Both the position numbers and the translations under genes were made by a program. A stretch of DNA of 64,000 nucleotides from Clavelina lepadiformis (taxonomy: Eukaryota; Chordata; Ascidiacea; Aplousobranchia; Clavelinidae): the NCBI RefSeq assembly GCF_947623445.1, contig NC_135243.1, forward strand, positions 22,700,479 through 22,764,478. Direction: 5' to 3'. The notes under the pieces were generated by a model, which searched no databases, had not been told where the DNA came from, and was given only the letters and a program-made list of their open reading frames with translations. Below, piece by piece: positions 36,701-49,062 of this stretch (position 1 is the stretch's first letter; the number at the start of each line of letters is the position of its first letter).

Positions 36701-37372
36701 ATAAAATGACTTAACAATGACAAAAATACATAAGAAAAAAATTTGCTTACAATGAACTTAAAGCATTAAACACGTATCAGTTATATTGTATGAAAATAAA
36801 AATAATAGAAGGGCACAAACCAAACAACAGTGTTATACATGAAAACAATAAGTAGATTTGTGAAGCATACGAAATGTTTAAAACTCACTTATGCAAACAG
36901 CAGCAAACAGTCGTATTGAAGAATCTGGAAGCAACTCGGGACAGTTTGGAAAGAAAGGTTGCACCAGATAGTTTGAAAACGTCAAAGCAATAGCAGCTTG
37001 CGAGGTGGGCCTTATAATGAGCAAGGCAATCCACAGTCTTAGGAAGGCTGGCAAGGGGCCATAAAATTCTCTGATGTACGCATAATCACCTCCAGATTTG
37101 ACAATAGTCGTCCCCAATTCAGCATAACACAAAGCTCCGATTGTGGAAAAGAAACCGCCGAGGGACCAAACTATAAGACTAAGTCCAACTGAGCCACATT
37201 GAACAAACACACCAACAGGTGAGATAAAAATTCCAGAGCCGATAATTGTACCGACGATTAAGGCACAGCCATTTACCAAAGTAATTCTTTGTTTTAGGAC
37301 AATCTTACTGTCCCCGGGCCCATCACTGCTGGATGGGTTGGAATTTTGCGAACTTACGGATTGTCTACTCAT
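33759..37372 (-). CDS. L-type amino-acid transporter light chain (SLC7 family, LAT1/LAT2-like)
   Basis: SLC7 light chains exchange neutral amino acids across the plasma membrane, joined to an SLC3 heavy chain by a disulfide. Exons (minus): 36889-37372, 36249-36374, 35693-35798, 35353-35397, 35113-35236, 34659-34762, 34456-34552, 34184-34333, 33759-33968. All phases agree and give 481 aa, the usual length for the family. TM1 carries the substrate-binding motif [12 protein letters not shown]. The Cys in FPNCPE between TM3 and TM4 matches the heavy-chain disulfide position. Later exons read [38 protein letters not shown] and [19 protein letters not shown], which is closest to LAT1/LAT2 as I recall them. 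The start is the ATG at 37370-37372; the in-frame sequence before it has no ATG. A possible donor in the last exon (ggcttaa|gtaagc) could give a different C terminus. Confidence 0.9.
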
Positions 37373-40300
37373 GGTCAATACTCCGAGTTTTAACGGTCAG
37401 AAATCGCGATGTTTATTCTTTAGACAACTGCACCATCAACAAATTGTGTTTAATTTGTAGTCATACCTGTAGTTTGAATTCTGGCTAACACGGCTATCTG
37501 GAGAGAAAATAAAAACGCTTTTAAATACCACTTAAGTTAGTAGGTGAGCCATCTGTTTCGTTTTTGTTTTCACCATTCATGGCTTCGTAATTCTTTATTT
37601 AATCGCTGCACAGAAGTCGTTCACGCCTCAGAGACTAATTAACTAACGTACGGTACTAACGCAAATACACTTGGTAACTGGAGTAGGCCTATAATTCCTA
37701 TCAACAACATTTCTGTCATCTTGACTTCTGTTTTTAGATTAAAAACTCCAATTTCAGTTTAAAATTGAACTAGACTGTAAAGACTTGACTTAATCAACAG
37801 CTCCAGAAATCAAATGTAAAAAGGCAGCTTAAATTTACGGTACCTGGGCTGTATTATATTATTCGGACAAATAGACACAAACTTAAGTGTCATGCAAAAT
37901 ATAAAGTACACGATTACAATCGCTAGCTGTTTGGTTTTGGGAGGCTAGTTGAACCAACAACTGACAGACCGATAAAACTAGTCACTCTAGTGATTACTCG
38001 CTGACCAAGCACGATCGACTTCTAACAGCTGCCACGTGCCCACGACACACACGCTTTTTTTCTCAACTGGGAAGAACACGGCCGTTTCTCGTGTTTTTAT
38101 ACTGACACGATTTTTTGTTTGTATTACGCCAACAGGGTAACCCAATATCTACATTTAAAGCATAAAATATCCACTTCACGACGTAAATGTATAAAGTACT
38201 TACAAAAATGTTAAAACATAAATACGAAAACTGTACAACATAGCGTTTTATTGAAGTAAAAGCACCTTTTTAAAATCAATAAAATCTTTGTGATACGCTA
38301 ACCTCCGCAGAAACGTCTGACAACAAAAGTCTGCTACTTTTCTGACAGTTGACACTGATCAGTCACAATTAGTGGTACCGTAATACCCATGAAAGGTTGC
38401 ATCATGGATCGTTTTGAAACTTTACGTAAGGACTGTTTCTTTCTCCACGAAACTACTTAGGTTGCTTTGTACTAGAACATACAAAACAATAATTGAACTT
38501 TAGAGTGGTTGGTAGTTACTGACTTTTAATTGTTGGAAGCTTACTTAGATTTATTGGGTTACAGAGAGAAATAGAGTTCAAATTTGGAAAATTGTTATAG
38601 GACAAAATGTTTCACAGGAATTTCACACAGCGAACAAATTTTCAAGAACCATAAAAGCAACAGGTTCGATTAGTTAGATGTTCCTCACACTACAAATAAA
38701 AAAGCAAAATACAGTCTGGGTCTGAGCAAAAATTACAAATCGAGTCTAATACAATTATGAACTGTCTCAAGCGTCTACCACAATTGTAACCATAACCACT
38801 AGCGTACGCAAGGAAAGGGTTGGGGACAAACCGCCATCATTTCTTGACACTTCACAAGGGCGACGGCAAACCGTTTTGTGTTGGTACCGTAAGTAATGTT
38901 TGATATTCTAACACTTACAAGGCAAGAAAACTTTTGCTTTAATATACTTGCTTCAATATTTTCTTTACAACTTTAAAACAGTATCAAATTAATGTTAGAA
39001 TTCAAATTATAATTGTGCTTTGGAAATGGGAAAATGGTACAAATATGCGTCAACTGTGCGTATTTTGTCTACAACTTATATCATGGCCGGAAGCTTGGCT
39101 TAAAGATCAATGGAGTCAAATCAACCAAATGTAATGACAATGTTCACATAAAAATAGACAATGGGAAGCCATCTGGGAAGCGAAAATTATTGAGGACAAG
39201 AAATACAGCTCCATTAAGTATAAAGTATAATAAATGTCATCGCTGTCTTCAAAAGAATACGGCAGTTCGATTGACGACAATGCCTGGGGCTAAATGGGAA
39301 CAATTGTTGTAGCCCGTGAAAGAATGATTTTCGCATTTTTAAAAGCGTTCTTATCTTATATAAAAAAAAAACAATAGAAGTTTCACATGTCTTTCTGTGA
39401 GACATTTTATTTATGTAGAATATTCGACTAATGAGGATCAGCTGTCTGCCACTGTCCATAGCTTTTAAAATAATCTGGCAATTAAATAAAATCCAATGTA
39501 GTCTGATTTGTTTGTCTAATACTCTAACAGGAGGCGTACTGACCGCAAAAAATTTTGCAGATTGCGCTGTGGCAACATTTATCCCATTTGCACAGTTTGT
39601 TAACGGAAACAGAATAGATACTTACCGACGTCGTTGGGCGGTATGTTACTCATTTGCAAAATTATTCAAACAGTCGTCACCGGGTTATTTATTTACATAC
39701 TGTACTGCTTTGATAATAAAAACCTGAATCACCGTAAACATATCTGGTACCTAAACATCGCATGTTACAGGTCTCGGTTAGGCGATTATGATCAAACAAA
39801 GCGATGTTCTTCAAACCGTACTTGGCACAGACAGGTTAGCGGGTCAATGACCTCAGGTCATAACGGAACGAGGGAAGAGATTAGAAAAGTCGTTGTAAAT
39901 TACCAGTACTGTGTCAAAGAAGGTATTTTTTGCAAGATTAAACCTTAATGTTCAGGACCGTAAAGAACAGGAATTTGATGTCACAATCTTAAGGAACGCA
40001 TACAAAGTATATTTATTTATTTTTTACTACAACTAAAGCTATTAGTAAATAGTAATGCACTCACCAACTAAACGAAGGCGCTATCTTGTGCGCCGTGTAC
40101 CGGGCGGAATAAATTTGTTCAAATTAATAACTAAAAAATCAATCAACAGCTGTCTGATTGAACAAAAACAGTTTGTGCACCCAAAGTTTTTGTTGAGCTT
40201 AAACACACACATGATGATGAATTATCAACATATTGAAAAACATATTTATGATTATAAGCTTTCAAAAGGGATGAAGTAAGTTACAGTACTCAAAATGTTC

Positions 40301-41036: not shown

Positions 41037-43896
41037 TCATAATTTTGAGATAAGACTTCCAGATCTCAATCCTGGTCTCAGAGGTCTTTGAAGTAGTGAC
41101 GTCATAGGATGGATGACTCTTTCAGGGTGACATAAATGAACGTGATGTTTCCCTTTGACTTCAATATATCCGTAATACTGAAGAATCGGATACTTACTTA
41201 GTAATTGTAAATAGATTAATTTAGGCGTTTTACAGACTTCGCACTTAGATAAGATACATTTAAATAAATTGAAGAGATCAATATGTTCACAGATGAACCG
41301 GAAATCGTTGAAAGTAAATATCTCTGAATTGATTCAAATGAAACAGCAACACATTATGTAATACCTCACAATTGTTAAATCCATCTCTGAAATAGCTGTT
41401 GAACAGTTCTGTTAGGTTGGGCTCTTTGTTTTTCAAGTCCCCATTGTCTGCACTGTAAGACATTAGTTTGCCTATAACCATTTATCTCGATATTACAAAA
41501 TAAACATGTGTTTGATTTTGATGTGACATGATGTTACAGTATCATATTCTTGTAAACATTAACTGCAATATTTCCCCAAATTTCTTCAAAAACGTTTTAA
41601 ACTAATATTTTGATTATACTTTTTACAAACAGCAGCAGAACCTACTGTAACAAAAGGTAATACAGTATAGTGAAAACTGAAATATAAAATGTAGCAGTAC
41701 TGACATAATGTGTATTGTTTCAGCGGCAATTCGAGTAAGAAAATCCAACACATTTCCAGCATACACTGCGTAAAGCTCTTGATATCTATGGCGACGATCT
41801 CTTCTATATTCGTACATTCCTGTCATCACACAAAGAACCTTAGAAATTTCGATGACCACCAACAAAAGTTCACAAATTATGCAGTTGCATTCACATGCAA
41901 TTTTATCAACGTTTTTATTTCTAATTATTAATTTTTGTCAATCATTAAACAAGAACCATTTTTAAGTCGTCTAGCTCCTCTTTCTAAAAGCACATCTACA
42001 GTTTCACCAGTCAAAGATGGATTTGCATTCAGCAACCTGAACATATAACCACGCTATGTTAGTCAAATTATCTCTATTTCACAAAACAATTGTAGTCGTC
42101 TTGTCTATAACTCAATTTCATGTGTATAAAGTAGGTGGTTTTGGTTTTATACAGTCCAGCAGGCATTATGCACTGTCTAATTTTTTGGCTGATGACCCAG
42201 TAGTATTACTAATTGACTAACTAACCTAGTAGCCCAGGTATAAATACGTTACAGGAGCAATAAGGTCACATTTTTAGCAACAATGAACTCACCTTTTCTT
42301 AGCATCTTGGTAGGAATAAGTTTTTGAGGGTTTGTCATAACTCTCATGTTGATAGTAGTCAACAACAGAGGAACGAAACTGTTTTATTTCATTGCCCTTC
42401 GCATAAAATAAAATTAGACATCACCTGAAAAAACTTTGCAAAAATTTTGCTGTTTTTTTATTGCTAGATCCGTAAAAGACTCAATAAACAGATTTGGCAT
42501 AAACTGAGTACCACGTTTATAGGAAAGAAGCCAACTTCATCCAGTAAAATAAGTTTGTCCACTTTCTCAGGAAAAGAACCTGCAAACTTAAAGTAAAGAA
42601 TATTTTTCCGTTATGAAATATATTTTATATGAAATGTATTTGATATGAAATGACTATAAACAGTCAATCATTAACCCTAAAACATTCTTTCTCAACGCCC
42701 AGTTGCCTGGTACTTATCTGTAAGAACATTTTAATAAATGTATTTTTAACTAAATTTATATTTTATCGTGATAATTATCATCAGGAATCAAACTCAAGCT
42801 TACCATTGCCCCAATGACAGCACCTAAAGAAAAAAAATCTTAGTTGCAAACTTTTAATTGACTTTTGCACTTGTGTCAACCGCTAAAATGTATACCATCA
42901 TAACTACAGCACTGTCACAGCTACATTAATTTCACACTTAAATAAAAAAATAGTAAACATTTTTACCCAAACTATGTCCAATGAAGCTGAAAACTTTCCA
43001 TTCAAAGTCTAAATATAAGAAAGATGATTGTGCAAATTACTAAAACTAAATAGTACTCGACATACCAATATCTAACCAAAAACTAACTACGATTACATCA
43101 TGGATAAAACTTTATGACCAATAATTAAATAATATAGTAAAAATAAAGTAAGATACAAAAGAAACTTCACCTGGATTTCTGAAATTGCATTAATTACTTG
43201 CCTTAGTTGCTTAAAATCACTTACAATTTGCTAATCTGTAAACAAGAGCTGCATAATCAAAGGTTGTGTAGAACATGCCGGGTGGAAAATCTGAAGACAA
43301 ACCATGACCAGGCAGATCAATGAAGACATAATATTTATCTGAAAAAGTAACTTTTTCTGCTGATTTCTTTCAGAAATGTGCATAATATGGCAAGGCCTTT
43401 ACAGAGTTGTAACAAATGGCCAAAAACTTGACATTGACTTTTGCACAAAAATGCAAACTACCATGATAACAATTCACACAAAACTAACCAATGATAAATA
43501 TATATCAAAATATGTACAGTAAAACATAAGTACATCCAGCGAAATCTTGTTAACATAAAATGTTAAATAAATCCAAGTAACCTAATTAGAGGTCCAGATG
43601 GTAAAATGCACAATAAGACCAATTTTTTATATATAACAACAACAGATAACTCAATAACAAAAAGTGACACAATCGATTCCTTCAATTTTCAGTTAAATAA
43701 GTTTCTACTGTATATATCCTACATGAGTATGCGTAAGAATGCTAACCTGCAGGTAGCAGAGGAATCAGGTTGTCAAATGTATTGCAATTATCCAACCATC
43801 CATGGATGCACAAAACAGGTGGATTTGTTGAATCGCCGAGAATTTTGCCGGCAATTATTCCCCATGGAACTGGAATCTCTATTTCCTTGGTGAGTC
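41037..43896 (-). pseudogene. SERHL-like serine hydrolase, unit A (probably decayed)
   Basis: SERHL proteins are alpha/beta hydrolases of unclear substrate. Unit A has ten recognisable exons: 43747-43896, 43225-43338, 42967-43008, 42804-42823, 42512-42586, 42293-42397, 41957-42036, 41705-41819, 41365-41452, 41037-41177, in the same order and largely the same phases as intact units B and C. It keeps the LCIHGWLDNCNTFDN oxyanion region, the GHSLG nucleophile elbow and the C-terminal KGKHHVHL with the catalytic His. Three defects show: no first exon with an ATG is found at the usual distance of 90-120 bp upstream of exon 2; exon 7 needs a one-base frame change near 42360-42361 to keep homology; and the likely catalytic-acid position is Asn (ADNG) where B, C and E have Asp (DG). 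A transposon lies 46 bp upstream of exon 2. A sequence error in exon 7 is possible. Confidence 0.75.
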
Positions 43897-43941
43897 CTGT
43901 TGTAACAATTATAACAGGTGATTTAGATATTAATAAAAGTA

Positions 43942-46606
43942 ACACTGTGCTGCGTTAATTTTTAGGTTACTAAAGTATTGACGGTTCTTAGTGTACTTTT
44001 TGATGCTGAATCCAAAACTGTTATCCGTTTTCTTCAATCAGGTCTAGTTTTTTGGCAAATTGCATTTGAAATTTTTGACAACTTCAGCTTTCAGCGTTTG
44101 CGATTGAGATTTGTGGTGTCATAAAAATGATTTAGCTTTTGAATTAAGTTTTGATGAAACTTCAGTGACATCACAATGAGAAGAACATAACGAATGCACC
44201 TGGTGCTTGAAAAGTTAAACATCTGAACTTGTTTTTACAGGCTAGTTTAGTGTGCAGTTTAGATGATTTGTTTTTACAGTACAATGAGAAAGTGCAAAAA
44301 TGATCCAGACAGGTTCTGTTACATATGTGGCAAGGTCACCCTGCGCAGTCGCCAAGCAAAAATTACGCAGTTTGTTAAGAAAGCATATTATGCGTATTTT
44401 AGATTAAAACTAGGCGATCAGGACAAGGCATTTGCTCCGCACATATGTTGTAGAGCATGCGTTGAAAACTTGAGATTATGGAGCCTAAAGAAAATAAAGA
44501 GCCTTCCTTTTGGTATTCCTATGGTATGGAGAGAAGGAAAAGACCATGTCACTGAATGTTATTTTTGCATGACCAACTTACAAGGTATGCTGATACTTGC
44601 ACTGTATGGAGGCATTTTCATTAATTGCTTGATTTAAGAGTAACAGTGTTCTTTTTCATTTTAGGAATAAACCGGAAGAACAAACAACATGTGAAGTACC
44701 CTGATGTTCCTTCAGCCATGAAACCAGTACCACATGGCCCTGGTATTCCTGTTCCAGAACCACCTGGAGAAATAAGTGAAATGGAGTGTTCTTCATCTGC
44801 AGAGAGCAAAGCAAGTGAACAAGACACATGGGATGCAGAGCAAAGTACAAGCCAACCGAAGCCTCTTACACAGCTTGAGCTGAATGACCTAACACGAGAT
44901 TTAAATCTCACCAAAGAATCCGCTCAGCTCCTAGGATCACGACTACGTGAGAACAACTTGCTAGCTCCATGCACCACATATTTCTGGTATCGGTATAGAG
45001 ATAAAGAGTTTAGAAAATATTTCAATTATGACGAAGACCATTCCCTAGTATACTGTCAAGATGTTTCAGGATTAATATCAGCTTTGGGCATAGTCTACAG
45101 TTCGGCAGAATGGCGATTGTTTTTGGACTCATCTGTAAAGAGTTTGAAGGTAGTATTACTACACAATGGCAATAAGATTGGTTCTGTTCCTGTTGGACAT
45201 TCAGTGAAGCTCACTGAATGCTATGAAGACATGAAATTCCTTTTGAAATCTCTTCAGTATAGCCAACACAAATGGAAAATATGTGGTGACTTAAAAATGA
45301 TTTCAATACTTCTTGGGTTACAGGCCGGTTACACTAAACATCCATGTTTTTTGTGTCTGTGGGACTCGAGGGCTGATGATCGCCACTACACACAAATTAG
45401 CTGGCCACCCAGAACAAGTTTTACACCTGGTTTTAAAAATGTCAAATTTGCTTACTTAGTTGATCCACAAAATATTCTTTTGCCACCTCTCCACATTAAA
45501 CTTGGTCTCATGAAAAACTATACCAAAGCACTTGATAAAGATGGCCCAACCTTCAAGTTCTTACAAATGAAATTTCCACGTATCTCTGAAGCGAAGCTAC
45601 GAGCAGGAGTCTTTGATGGGCCACAGATCCGTGAGCTGATGAAAGACGAAGGTTTTACTGCACACATGAGTGCAGTAGAAAAAAGAGCATGGACAGGATT
45701 TCGAGCAGTAATTTCAAACTTCCTTGGAAAGCATAGAAGCCCTGATTATGAAGCACAGGTTAAAGAGCTGCTTGAAAGTTTTCAATCCCTTGGAGCCCGG
45801 ATGTCTGTGAAAATGCACTTTCTGAGTTCGCATTTAGATTACTTTCCTGACAACTGTGGTGACTACAGCGAAGAACAGGGAGAGAGATTCCACCAAGACC
45901 TTCGCCATATGGAAGAAAGGTACCAAGGATACTGGGACGTAAACATGCTTGCAGATTACTGTTGGTGCTTAAAAAGAGATCTTCCCAATTCCACACATAG
46001 AAGAAAATCTTTGAAGCGACACTTTTTGTCAGCATAAATCATTTGTATTTATATTGTTATTGCATTTAATGTCGTAATATCATCATGTGCCGCACAACGC
46101 TTTCTGTGTTAAGCTATTTTGAACACTTCGTTTTTATTTCACACATTGATGTTGGCAAGTATTTCACATTTAAAACACATTTGTGATGTTAAGTGTTTAC
46201 GTGTCTATAGTGTAACATATTAACTTCTACTTTTAGGTTGAGCGCCGTTGAACAAAATTATGTGTTAGGAAGCTTTCTTGGTTAGTTGTAAGTGCCTTTA
46301 TTTCAACTGTGTCATTATATTTTTTTAGTATTTAAAATGGCTGTCATTGCAAAAACCTTACATTCAAATAAAAATACCATCTTGCGAAAATTGACAACAT
46401 GCATGACCAATTAAGCTACCACAGAAATTAGTTTCTTTGTGCACAATAATGACCAAAGCTAGCATAATTAAATATGTGATAGAAAAAAAACTTGACCTGA
46501 TTGAAAAAAACTGGTTGCATTTTTGAGTTCAGCGCAAAAAATCGATTCAGAAACAGTTAAAACATCTTTGACCTTTGAAAAAAAATTTTCAAACGCAGCA
46601 CAGTGT
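43942..46606. mobile_element. DNA transposon with 15-bp TIRs and a transposase-like gene
   Basis: The 15 bases at 43942-43956 (acactgtgctgcgtt) recur as an exact reverse complement at 46592-46606, bracketing a 2.67-kb stretch whose only gene is the two-exon transposase-like gene. Beyond the perfect 15 bp, both ends continue into short T-rich sequence. I do not see a clear target-site duplication, so the exact ends may be one or two bases off. It lies 46 bp upstream of SERHL-A exon 2, where that gene's first exon should be. The superfamily is not assigned. Confidence 0.7.
44284..46037 (+). CDS. Transposase-like protein, 557 aa, two exons
   Basis: Exons 44284-44584 and 44665-46037 join in phase 1 across an 80-bp GT-AG intron to give 557 aa without stops. 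The first 100 residues hold a Cys/His cluster (C12, C15, H53, C55, C56, C59, C92, C95), probably a zinc-binding DNA-contact domain. A Pro/Ser/Glu-rich linker follows (residues 110-170). The core looks like an RNase H fold: strand WRLFLDSS (Asp255), KICGDLK (Asp309), an insertion with CFLCLWD and a His (C328, C331, H341), and a late helix EEQGERFHQD (Glu507). These acids are my candidates for a DDE triad. I recall similar multi-copy, unnamed proteins in other invertebrates. The start follows an acceptor-like tttttacag, so the in-frame ATG at 44263 is less likely. Being intact within TIRs, it may be recently active. Confidence 0.75.
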
Positions 46607-49062
46607 ATAATTTATCAATAAAGTTGCAATAAATTTATATCATATATGACAAATAGTGCAATAGTAGTAATATTTTGTATTTTGCCTACACAGCAAAATT
46701 AGTAGGCTGTCATTATTGCACCAAATAAAATGTATGTATAAAGTAAATTTATTTAATTGATATAATTATAGCCTAACCAAAATCTATGACACTTACAACT
46801 AACCCTAACAGAATATAAATGAGAAAACCATACTTAAATAGTAAATTATTACTAACAGTAAATAGTAACAGGTAATTTTTTTGCTGACATGATTTTTATA
46901 ATGGACAACCTAAACAATGGGTAACACCATTCAGAATAGGTGAAATAAATTACTGGTTAAACAATAAAAGTTCAGCATTTTGGCCGCTTTAACTGTCAAT
47001 TATCACAAAAATCACCTCTGACAGATGTACCAGAATATGTCAAAGTTTCTTTCATTGTTTCTTTCTTGAAATTAAAAATGAATTAGCTGGAAAAAATCAC
47101 ATGAAGAATTTCTTGCATGACAGTGACCAAAAACCTGTTCCCATTAAACTAGAAATAAATAACTAAGGCAGTATTCATCTCACAGAAAAAATTTGTGATT
47201 TTGAAATCTGCATTGTTTCTTTTCATGCAACGCATTCTAATTAAAGAATGACCTTTCATTAAACAGCATTATTATGATAAATTTTGTTCAACAAAACAGT
47301 TTGACCTCAAATGACCAAGCCACACTAGCGCGTGTGGTTCCTAAATCACCCAGAACTGAAAAGCAATTAAGTTAAACTATGTTTAGCCTTGACCCAGCTC
47401 AGCATAACATAAAACTTGAAATAACAAATTAAGCTGGTTTTTACACCCTTGCCGTGGAAACAAACTTGGCAAAGAGTATTCAAGCATTTGACCACATACC
47501 AACCTTAAGGTACTGATATATTACTACACTTAACATTTGAAGTAAACAGAACAAGGTTGACAAGCTTTCTTGTTTAAGAATTAAACTTCACTTGATAAAT
47601 CCAACACTGACAGCCACTCATTTTAATCCAATATGCAGCGATGCATGACAAATTTAAGCAAATATCACTCCACTGGTCTATCAACACTGGAATATAGTTT
47701 TCAATGAGAAATTGTTCATGTAAAGACACAGTTTTACTTGCTTGTATTAAACAAACAAGGCAAAGTTTGTTGTTTTAAAGACGATACTTTATAACAAATA
47801 TAAAACGACTTGGATATTTTGAAGAATTGACGTTACAAGTGCCAAATGTTAAACTTTGCATGCACGATTGATCGTCGAAAACTGCCATAGGCTACTTTCC
47901 ACTGAAGCTTCCAACAGGAAGCAAGTGGTAAAAAACAGTAATTTTGTTGTGACTGCGCCAAAGTGTGCTTTGGTACTGATTTGATGATTCCTCATCACTT
48001 AAGCTCCAAATGAATTTATTGCAACTGGCGCTTTGTCAGCTTTACTTCTCTGGCAACCTTTAAGACTCATTTTCATTATTCTATCTTTGCTTCCAAAGCA
48101 AAACAGGCTTTGACCAGTTCCCATTTTAATGATATTTCATGAACTGAGATGAGAAATTTGTACTGGGGAACACCCCAAAAAGAGAAAGGTTTTCAACACT
48201 TACGAAGCCACACCGCTTTTAGTTTTTCAAGGACTACCTACTCCATTAGACGATTTGGTTTGACAAAAAAAACATTTGTAGAAACCATACACGCATGTTT
48301 ATAAAAGTTATTAATTTATTATTTACAGACCAACAATACGTTACAGTACTTGAAATTTTGGCAATACGATTGAAAAAATGAAAAACCCCCAAAAAAATGA
48401 GCAACAATCTCAACTTGCACAATAGCTAGCTCGGTAACCAGGGTTCGAGCGATGAAGAATCAGTGTCCAGTTTAAGTCGTGGAATGACTTTCTTCAGTCG
48501 GAGGATAAAGATTATCATACTTAACCATGAATTAAACCACTAAATGAAAATGATTAACTGATTAAGCAAAGACATCAATTGAAATAAACGACTAGTTACA
48601 GCTACTTACTGTTTTGCGGTATTGTGCAATGTATTGAACATTTTACTTTTTACCACGTTTTCTTGTCCAAACTGGGGCTTTTTTCAGGTCAGTTAGCTGC
48701 AGTGATTCGTGCGAAATGGTTTTTGGAATTTTAATGACCTCCGCGAACCGGTTGTTAACAAGCGTATGTATAGGCCTATGTTTCACTTCGAGCACTGCAT
48801 TCCCGCGTTTAATAACATGCTATTATTAGCCCTAATAATTATAGTAACGTTACAACTTGCAAGCACACGTGTTTACAACGCATTGTGCAGTGACAATACG
48901 GTAGAACTCGCATATAATCTCGTATAAAACGGATCCATTCATCATTGCAAAGAAATCGATTGTTGACAGTACTATTGCTATTGTCACAGAAGAAAGAGTG
49001 CGTTATTCTTCACACTCGATTCGATCTTTCACTTGTGAATTGTGATATACAGGTATCGCGTG
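46607..49062. other. Spacer between the transposon and the first hAT element
   Basis: No gene was found. I searched the minus strand here for a displaced first exon of SERHL unit A (ATG followed by a phase-1 donor) and saw none. It contains the SINE-like repeat at 48410-48520. Just before the hAT element, at 48890-48930, a short stretch (cggtagaactcgcatataatc) resembles one end of the pogo-like element, but no partner end is visible. Confidence 0.45.
48410..48520 (+). repeat. SINE-like dispersed repeat, copy 2
   Basis: Same family and orientation as 22637-22749: aacttgc, tagctcggtaacc, gggttcgagcgatga, gactttcttcagtcgg and ataaagattatcata. The B-box-like gttcgagc is intact. The two copies differ at many positions, so neither insertion is recent. 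Confidence 0.55.

Follow-up and report, generated by a model that had tools for sequence, protein, structure and literature searches.

A recently mobile transposon, most probably of the Chapaev3 group, with an intact two-exon transposase gene in the ascidian Clavelina lepadiformis

In a 64,000-nucleotide stretch of the Clavelina lepadiformis genome (NC_135243.1, 22,700,479 to 22,764,478, forward strand; hereafter the window), we delimited a 2,663-bp DNA transposon at window positions 43943-46605 by comparison with its copies in the same genome, and we find it very probable that it is a cut-and-paste element of the Chapaev3 group of CACTA-Mirage-Chapaev (CMC) transposons with an intact transposase gene of its own. 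The element is a new family of this known group, which was reportedly named by Kapitonov and Jurka in 2007/2008, and not a new superfamily. An original prediction made from the letters alone had proposed a 15-bp inverted repeat around a gene for an unnamed transposase-like protein, and hence a defined DNA transposon, perhaps of a new superfamily. The defined transposon was borne out by its ends, gene, target duplications and copies at different sites, whereas the suggestion of an unnamed, perhaps new superfamily found no support, since the ends, the duplication and the protein motifs agree with the published description of Chapaev3.

Identity between copies stops at fixed bases, so that the element runs from CACTGTGCTGCGTT to AACGCAGCACAGTG with TWA directly outside each end. 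The inverted pair at 43928-43956 and 46592-46620 does include the predicted exact 15-bp repeat, ACACTGTGCTGCGTT, but its outermost A and T (bases 43942 and 46606) belong to the target-site duplication, and the exact terminal inverted repeat of the element itself is therefore 14 bp, CACTGTGCTGCGTT. An imperfect inverted similarity of 72% covers approximately 112–122 bp of each end (query 1-112 vs 2544-2665). We compared the flanks of 37 retrieved loci and the window copy (38 sites), leaving out three loci with one exact end missing (L037, L039 and L045) and one with the flanks of another (L024, as L023), which left 34 distinct sites. An exact 3-bp TWA duplication (TAA or TTA) flanks the element at 28 of these and an exact 4-bp TTAT duplication at two (L010 and L028), while four are imperfect (L035, L042, L044 and the window copy); the window duplication had not been obvious in the original prediction because it reads TAA on the left and TAT on the right. 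The duplication is preceded by A in 30/34 sites and followed by T in 31/34; A at −8 (26/34) and T at +7 (21/34) are also preferred, symmetrically but more weakly. When the left flank of one copy was paired with the right flank of another, 14.2 three-base matches in 34 were expected by chance, a high figure because the target preference fixes the outer T and A. At the 28 sites that have TWA left and right, the informative middle base is always the same in the two (A in 12, T in 16; Fisher p 3e-8). The proposed comparison of insertion sites thus gives a duplication length of 3 bp. One copy (L030, G000:C4:18429068-18433718) lies within a tandem array of ~229-bp units, and its flanks, when joined with one TTA, match two adjacent units at 100% over 60 bp and others at 92–98%, indicating that these units are the pre-insertion site with the target present once. 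A second empty-site match, of L043 to L038, is 93% identical and differs in the target triplet itself.

A DNA search of the genome with the interval 43942-46606 gave 159 candidates, of which the best 40 were scored, making all counts lower bounds. As had been anticipated, copies with both ends and the gene were found: at least 24 are near full length, the window copy included, aligning from query position 1 or 2 through 2665 with at least 98% identity, and their mean pairwise divergence is 1.1%; further copies are shorter and interrupted. The gene is fully intact in 12 of the 24, nine copies at eight distinct sites (L023-L031) have a one-base deletion in exon 2 in common, and in three (L014, L015 and L017) the gene is broken by a stop or frameshift. 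Internal deletions are likewise common to L040 and L041 and to L043 and L044, each at different sites. Since a broken gene or a deletion shared between different sites means that transposase came from other copies, these sequences indicate that copies unable to make the whole enzyme have moved repeatedly with transposase supplied by others. A search with the 5′ 150 bp gave 73 candidates, and 37 of the best 40, which were scored, fall at loci listed with gene sequence; of the other three loci, two (L064 and L065) contain decayed internal pieces of the element, and one (L066) shows 234 bp of the 5′ end alone, and no gene within the 3.3 kb retrieved. The same ends and the same gene thus recur together, rather than the ends occurring without relation to the gene. 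A host gene domesticated from a transposase and surrounded by chance repeats could equally have the intact reading frame of the window copy, but for this copy such an origin is already refuted, and we give it practically no credence, by at least 24 near-identical full-length copies with common ends, mostly exact duplications at different sites and an empty site. The sequences instead identify a real, recently mobile cut-and-paste transposon, in which past mobility, the ends, the 3-bp duplication, the intact gene and mobilization in trans can all be read from the copies.

The gene is intact in the window copy, as predicted, and its two exons encode a protein of 557 aa after splicing; the length and splice dinucleotides of the intron are identical in 24/24 near-full-length copies. 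The predicted N-terminal Cys/His cluster is present and conserved in exon 1, with C12xxC15, H53, C56xxC59, H88 and C92xxC95 as putative zinc ligands, and is followed by the core motifs D255, D309, C328xxC331, L376-H377, H485(4)H490 and E507, with 198 residues separating D309 from E507. All three predicted acidic residues are at the positions given in the original prediction. In an alignment of 15 members from the same genome, D309, C328, C331, H377, H485 and E507 never vary, and D255 and H490 differ in one row each (the three acids are kept in 14/15, 15/15 and 15/15 rows). Apart from the transposase exons, the element has no listed open frame of at least 100 aa, and no RAG2-like gene was seen there.

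For structure prediction we used a single-frame relative, L052, folded with 14 others. Its model has a predicted RNase H core with a zinc-binding insertion as in RAG1 and Transib, in agreement with the proposed RNase H-like fold with a CxxC insertion, and superposes on RAG1 and Transib structures (HzTransib, 6pqx). In the model, the first catalytic residue falls in strand 1, the second immediately follows strand 4 and the third is in the final helix of the core, and these secondary-structure positions, together with the superposition, support clustering of the D-D-E residues. This prediction bears on PIF/Harbinger (PHIS) elements, for which a TWA duplication is classical and whose transposase is a compact DDE enzyme without a CxxC/H(4)H insertion. 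A 3-bp duplication, as in canonical Harbinger (PMC12730594), would suit such an element, but a D309-E507 spacing of 198 residues that includes CxxC and H(4)H, the predicted RAG1-like fold of the relative, the lack of any Pfam transposase match and the CACTG ends do not; fold and motif order refute this reading, except if the copies were mobilized by another transposase, of PIF type, and we regard it as next to impossible.

Assignment to Chapaev3 follows from defining features and not from a tree. As described by Zhang et al. (2014; PMC4079192), Chapaev3 elements have CAC...GTG termini, C(2)C, LH and H(4)H motifs in the transposase and a TWA duplication always between A and T; Garfield and Merrow have a two-exon transposase of 556–562 aa in elements of 2,289–2,455 bp, and most others a single-exon one; the Conan transposase has 461 aa, and elements of the group measure ~1.9–2.5 kb. 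The window family begins with CACTGTGCTGCGTT, and ten loci of other lineages have CAC...GTG; its DDE, C(2)C, LH and H(4)H residues are each kept in 14 or 15 of the 15 rows. TWA is duplicated at 28/34 sites, with flanking A and T in 30/34 and 31/34 as against the published ‘always’. Protein length and the two exons are as in Garfield and Merrow, single-frame relatives exist as well, and the element, at 2,663 bp, is slightly longer than theirs. An N-terminal zinc-finger (Chapa) domain shared with RAG1 has been reported for Chapaev3. Deleted derivatives are reported as well, and these also occur in the window family. Chapaev3 has further been placed with Transib and RAG1 (PMC4411706), a grouping matched by the RNase H-like core and zinc-binding insertion predicted for L052.

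Ends in CACTG, found in the window family and at most related loci (the 5′ end of L050 has CACTA), also recall CACTA/EnSpm elements sensu stricto, with which the window element has in common a 3-bp duplication and the C(2)C and H(3-4)H motifs described for EnSpm (PMC12730594). The window protein, however, has no Transposase_21 (TNP2, PF02992) match in a Pfam scan at E up to 10, and the element is short and encodes a single protein. A genome search with PF02992 was also silent, although its controls were silent too, making this weak, and the predicted fold points to RAG1/Transib, which is non-excluding as no CACTA structure was among the compared rows. Taken together, a CACTA/EnSpm origin is very improbable.

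Several points weigh against the Chapaev3 assignment or the reach of its evidence. Membership rests on published descriptions, with which the element was compared by description only. Exon 1 ends after 100 codons here vs 75–78 in Garfield and Merrow, so that the intron position differs. Pfam's Chapaev model is DUF1280 (PF06918; PMC3985635), and the Pfam scan of the window protein at E up to 10 gave no PF06918 match; Chapaev3 is, however, described as distant from other Chapaevs (PMC4411706). The N-terminal resemblance to RAG1 is weak (E 1.1), the fold model is that of a relative 58% identical to the window protein, and a single-sequence AlphaFold2 model of window exon 2 was discarded (pLDDT 40.5). 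The evidence for mobility concerns the past and not current activity, and comparison of exon 2 with the subfamily copy L035 (dN 0.035, dS 0.039, dN/dS ~0.9) gives no sign of selection within the window family. The intron position and the lack of a Pfam family reaching cut-off, in a comparison made by description rather than by letters, would also suit a separate unnamed lineage in the wider CMC/Transib (CMCT) group, with Chapaev3 features by common descent, and C(2)C and H(3-4)H are present in ESTA, Lanisha and Plavaka too (Kojima 2025, PMC12730594). Yet the specific agreement is with Chapaev3, in TWA between A and T, H(4)H, LH, the protein length and the occurrence of genes with one exon as well as two, and ESTA is described as duplicating TA (PMC12730594), which makes a separate lineage improbable. 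Chapaev sensu stricto (DUF1280) was likewise considered and not adopted, given the Pfam result; a genome search with PF06918 was silent, but as its controls were silent too, it is weak.

We also examined candidate domains and distant relatives of the protein. The Pfam scan (E up to 10) matched no transposase family, and the protein had no usable match in sequence searches of Pfam, NCBIfam and PDB; window-type proteins are presumably labelled ‘uncharacterized’ in databases because Pfam misses them. The N-terminus of RAG1 (E 1.1) was the only PDB sequence match in a profile search. Pfam zf-AD matched the N-terminus in 6 of the 15 members (best E 0.0032), below the Pfam cut-off, and was not adopted, although these matches raise the possibility that the Chapa domain is linked to the ZAD domain of insects; ZSWIM1-3_RNaseH-like, with one weak match (1/15 members, E 0.16), was not adopted either. 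No relatives were confirmed in viral contigs or in bacterial and archaeal genome contigs, and a BFVD structure search gave nothing below E 0.001.

By analogy with RAG1 and Transib, a single transposase would bind the inverted ends through its N-terminal domain, pair both ends and excise the element with an RNase H-type active site formed by D255, D309 and E507, for which residue conservation and the predicted fold argue, while a putative C328/C331-H485/H490 zinc site would stabilize the active site. The element would then be joined to an ATWAT target at strand transfer points 3 bp, occasionally 4 bp, apart, and the 3-bp spacing would account for the duplication of TWA; hairpins may form on the donor flanks, as with RAG and Transib. 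A protein family outside Pfam is thus most likely the transposase of a named group, with a young, well-bounded transposon family that provides intact copies, and a distant relative of this transposase, RAG1, assembles antibody genes. The structure prediction for L052 further suggests that a Chapaev3-type transposase has a RAG1/Transib core, fitting the grouping outlined by Kapitonov and Koonin (2015; PMC4411706). We consider it doubtful, though less so than the alternatives above, that the family is a distinct, still-mobile branch beside or within Chapaev3 with at least eleven lineages in one genome, whose whole protein is co-linear with RAG1 in the order N-terminal zinc cluster, DDE core with C2/H2 zinc site and C-terminal domain. 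Between its N-terminal cluster and its core, the window protein leaves no space for the RING finger and nonamer-binding region that RAG1 has. Transib makes 5-bp target duplications. Canonical Transib also differs in having no identifiable domain beside the core (as described in PMC4411706). If such a branch existed, it would represent an extant relative of the V(D)J recombinase without RING, nonamer-binding region or RAG2, in which hairpin chemistry could be tested with 3-bp rather than 5-bp target staggering.

Related proteins in the same genome were collected by searches giving 93, 88 and 87 matches from 1,753–1,879 first-look candidates, of which 77–93 were scored. Besides the window family, the 15-row alignment includes ten lineages (L046; L048, L056 and L061; L050; L052; L053; L054; L055 and L060; L057; L058; L059 and L062), 43–68% identical to one another or to the window protein. 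Synonymous sites are saturated relative to L052, L055 and L057 (pS 0.81–0.88, pN 0.29–0.37), which fits purifying selection between lineages. At 10 of 15 other-lineage loci, one open frame spans the N-terminal and core parts, and in L059-L063 the N-terminal part is incomplete or missing in the longest frame. Both ends were found at ten loci (L046, L048-L053 and L055-L057), with CAC...GTG in all ten. A simple end scan gave no ends in L050, L054 or L058 and no exact duplication in L055; the ends of L050 were located by comparing two copies, of which the partner, L051, is flanked by TTA on the left and TTG on the right. Exact 3-bp TWA flanks L050, L053, L056 and L057, and exact 4-bp duplications flank L046 (TAAT), L048 (TTAT) and L052 (ATAA); no exact duplication was found for L049 (no exact direct match at the flanks), L051 or L055, and none was obtained for L059-L063, where the flanks are too short. 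Four-base duplications (TTAT, TAAT, ATAA) thus occur both within the window family (L010, L028) and across lineages (L046, L048, L052), and may come from a stagger that varies or from an additional base at the end. Among sequences of the L059 lineage, 23 places (e.g. G000:C8:4074870-4075868) match only residues 163/164-496 of 496, at 90–91% identity and in an open frame; they could represent a single exon of a gene in two exons, or a derivative truncated at the N-terminus. Internal-deletion derivatives of the L050 family (e.g. G000:C2:16416957, C5:15665617 and C6:13781849) keep residues 1-215 and 432-565 (or to 549) at 96–99% identity.

Table. Window coordinates of the transposon, its ends, target-site copies and gene
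Feature	Position	Strand	Basis
Left target-site copy (TAA)	43940..43942		Flank comparison of copies; consensus target ATWAT
DNA transposon, very probably Chapaev3-type, 2663 bp	43943..46605	+	24 near-full-length own-genome copies; empty site for another copy (L030)
5′ terminal inverted repeat CACTGTGCTGCGTT	43943..43956	+	Inverted-repeat listing and copy comparison
5′ imperfect inverted terminal region, ~72% to 3′ end	43943..44053	+	Own-genome DNA search, inverted pair
Transposase exon 1	44284..44584	+	Residues 1-100 and first base of codon 101
Intron, 80 bp, GT-AG	44585..44664	+	Inferred from reading frame
Transposase exon 2 with stop; predicted RNase H-like catalytic core and C-terminal part	44665..46037	+	Motifs, alignment, fold of relative L052
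3′ imperfect inverted terminal region	46485..46605	-	Own-genome DNA search, inverted pair
3′ terminal inverted repeat AACGCAGCACAGTG	46592..46605	-	Inverted-repeat listing and copy comparison
Right target-site copy (TAT; 1 mismatch vs TAA)	46606..46608		Flank comparison

The element is adjoined by a minus-strand frame (43742-43945) that reads ...PPVLCIHGWLDNCNTFDNLIPLLPAG and that we take to resemble an alpha/beta-hydrolase exon, serine hydrolase-like; a 67-aa piece of this frame had no match in Pfam. By eye, the element lies ~45–50 bp upstream of the apparent splice acceptor of this exon, and it is probably intronic and antisense. Elsewhere in the window, positions 36878-37378 of the minus strand contain an amino-acid permease exon (AA_permease_2, E 3.8e-18).
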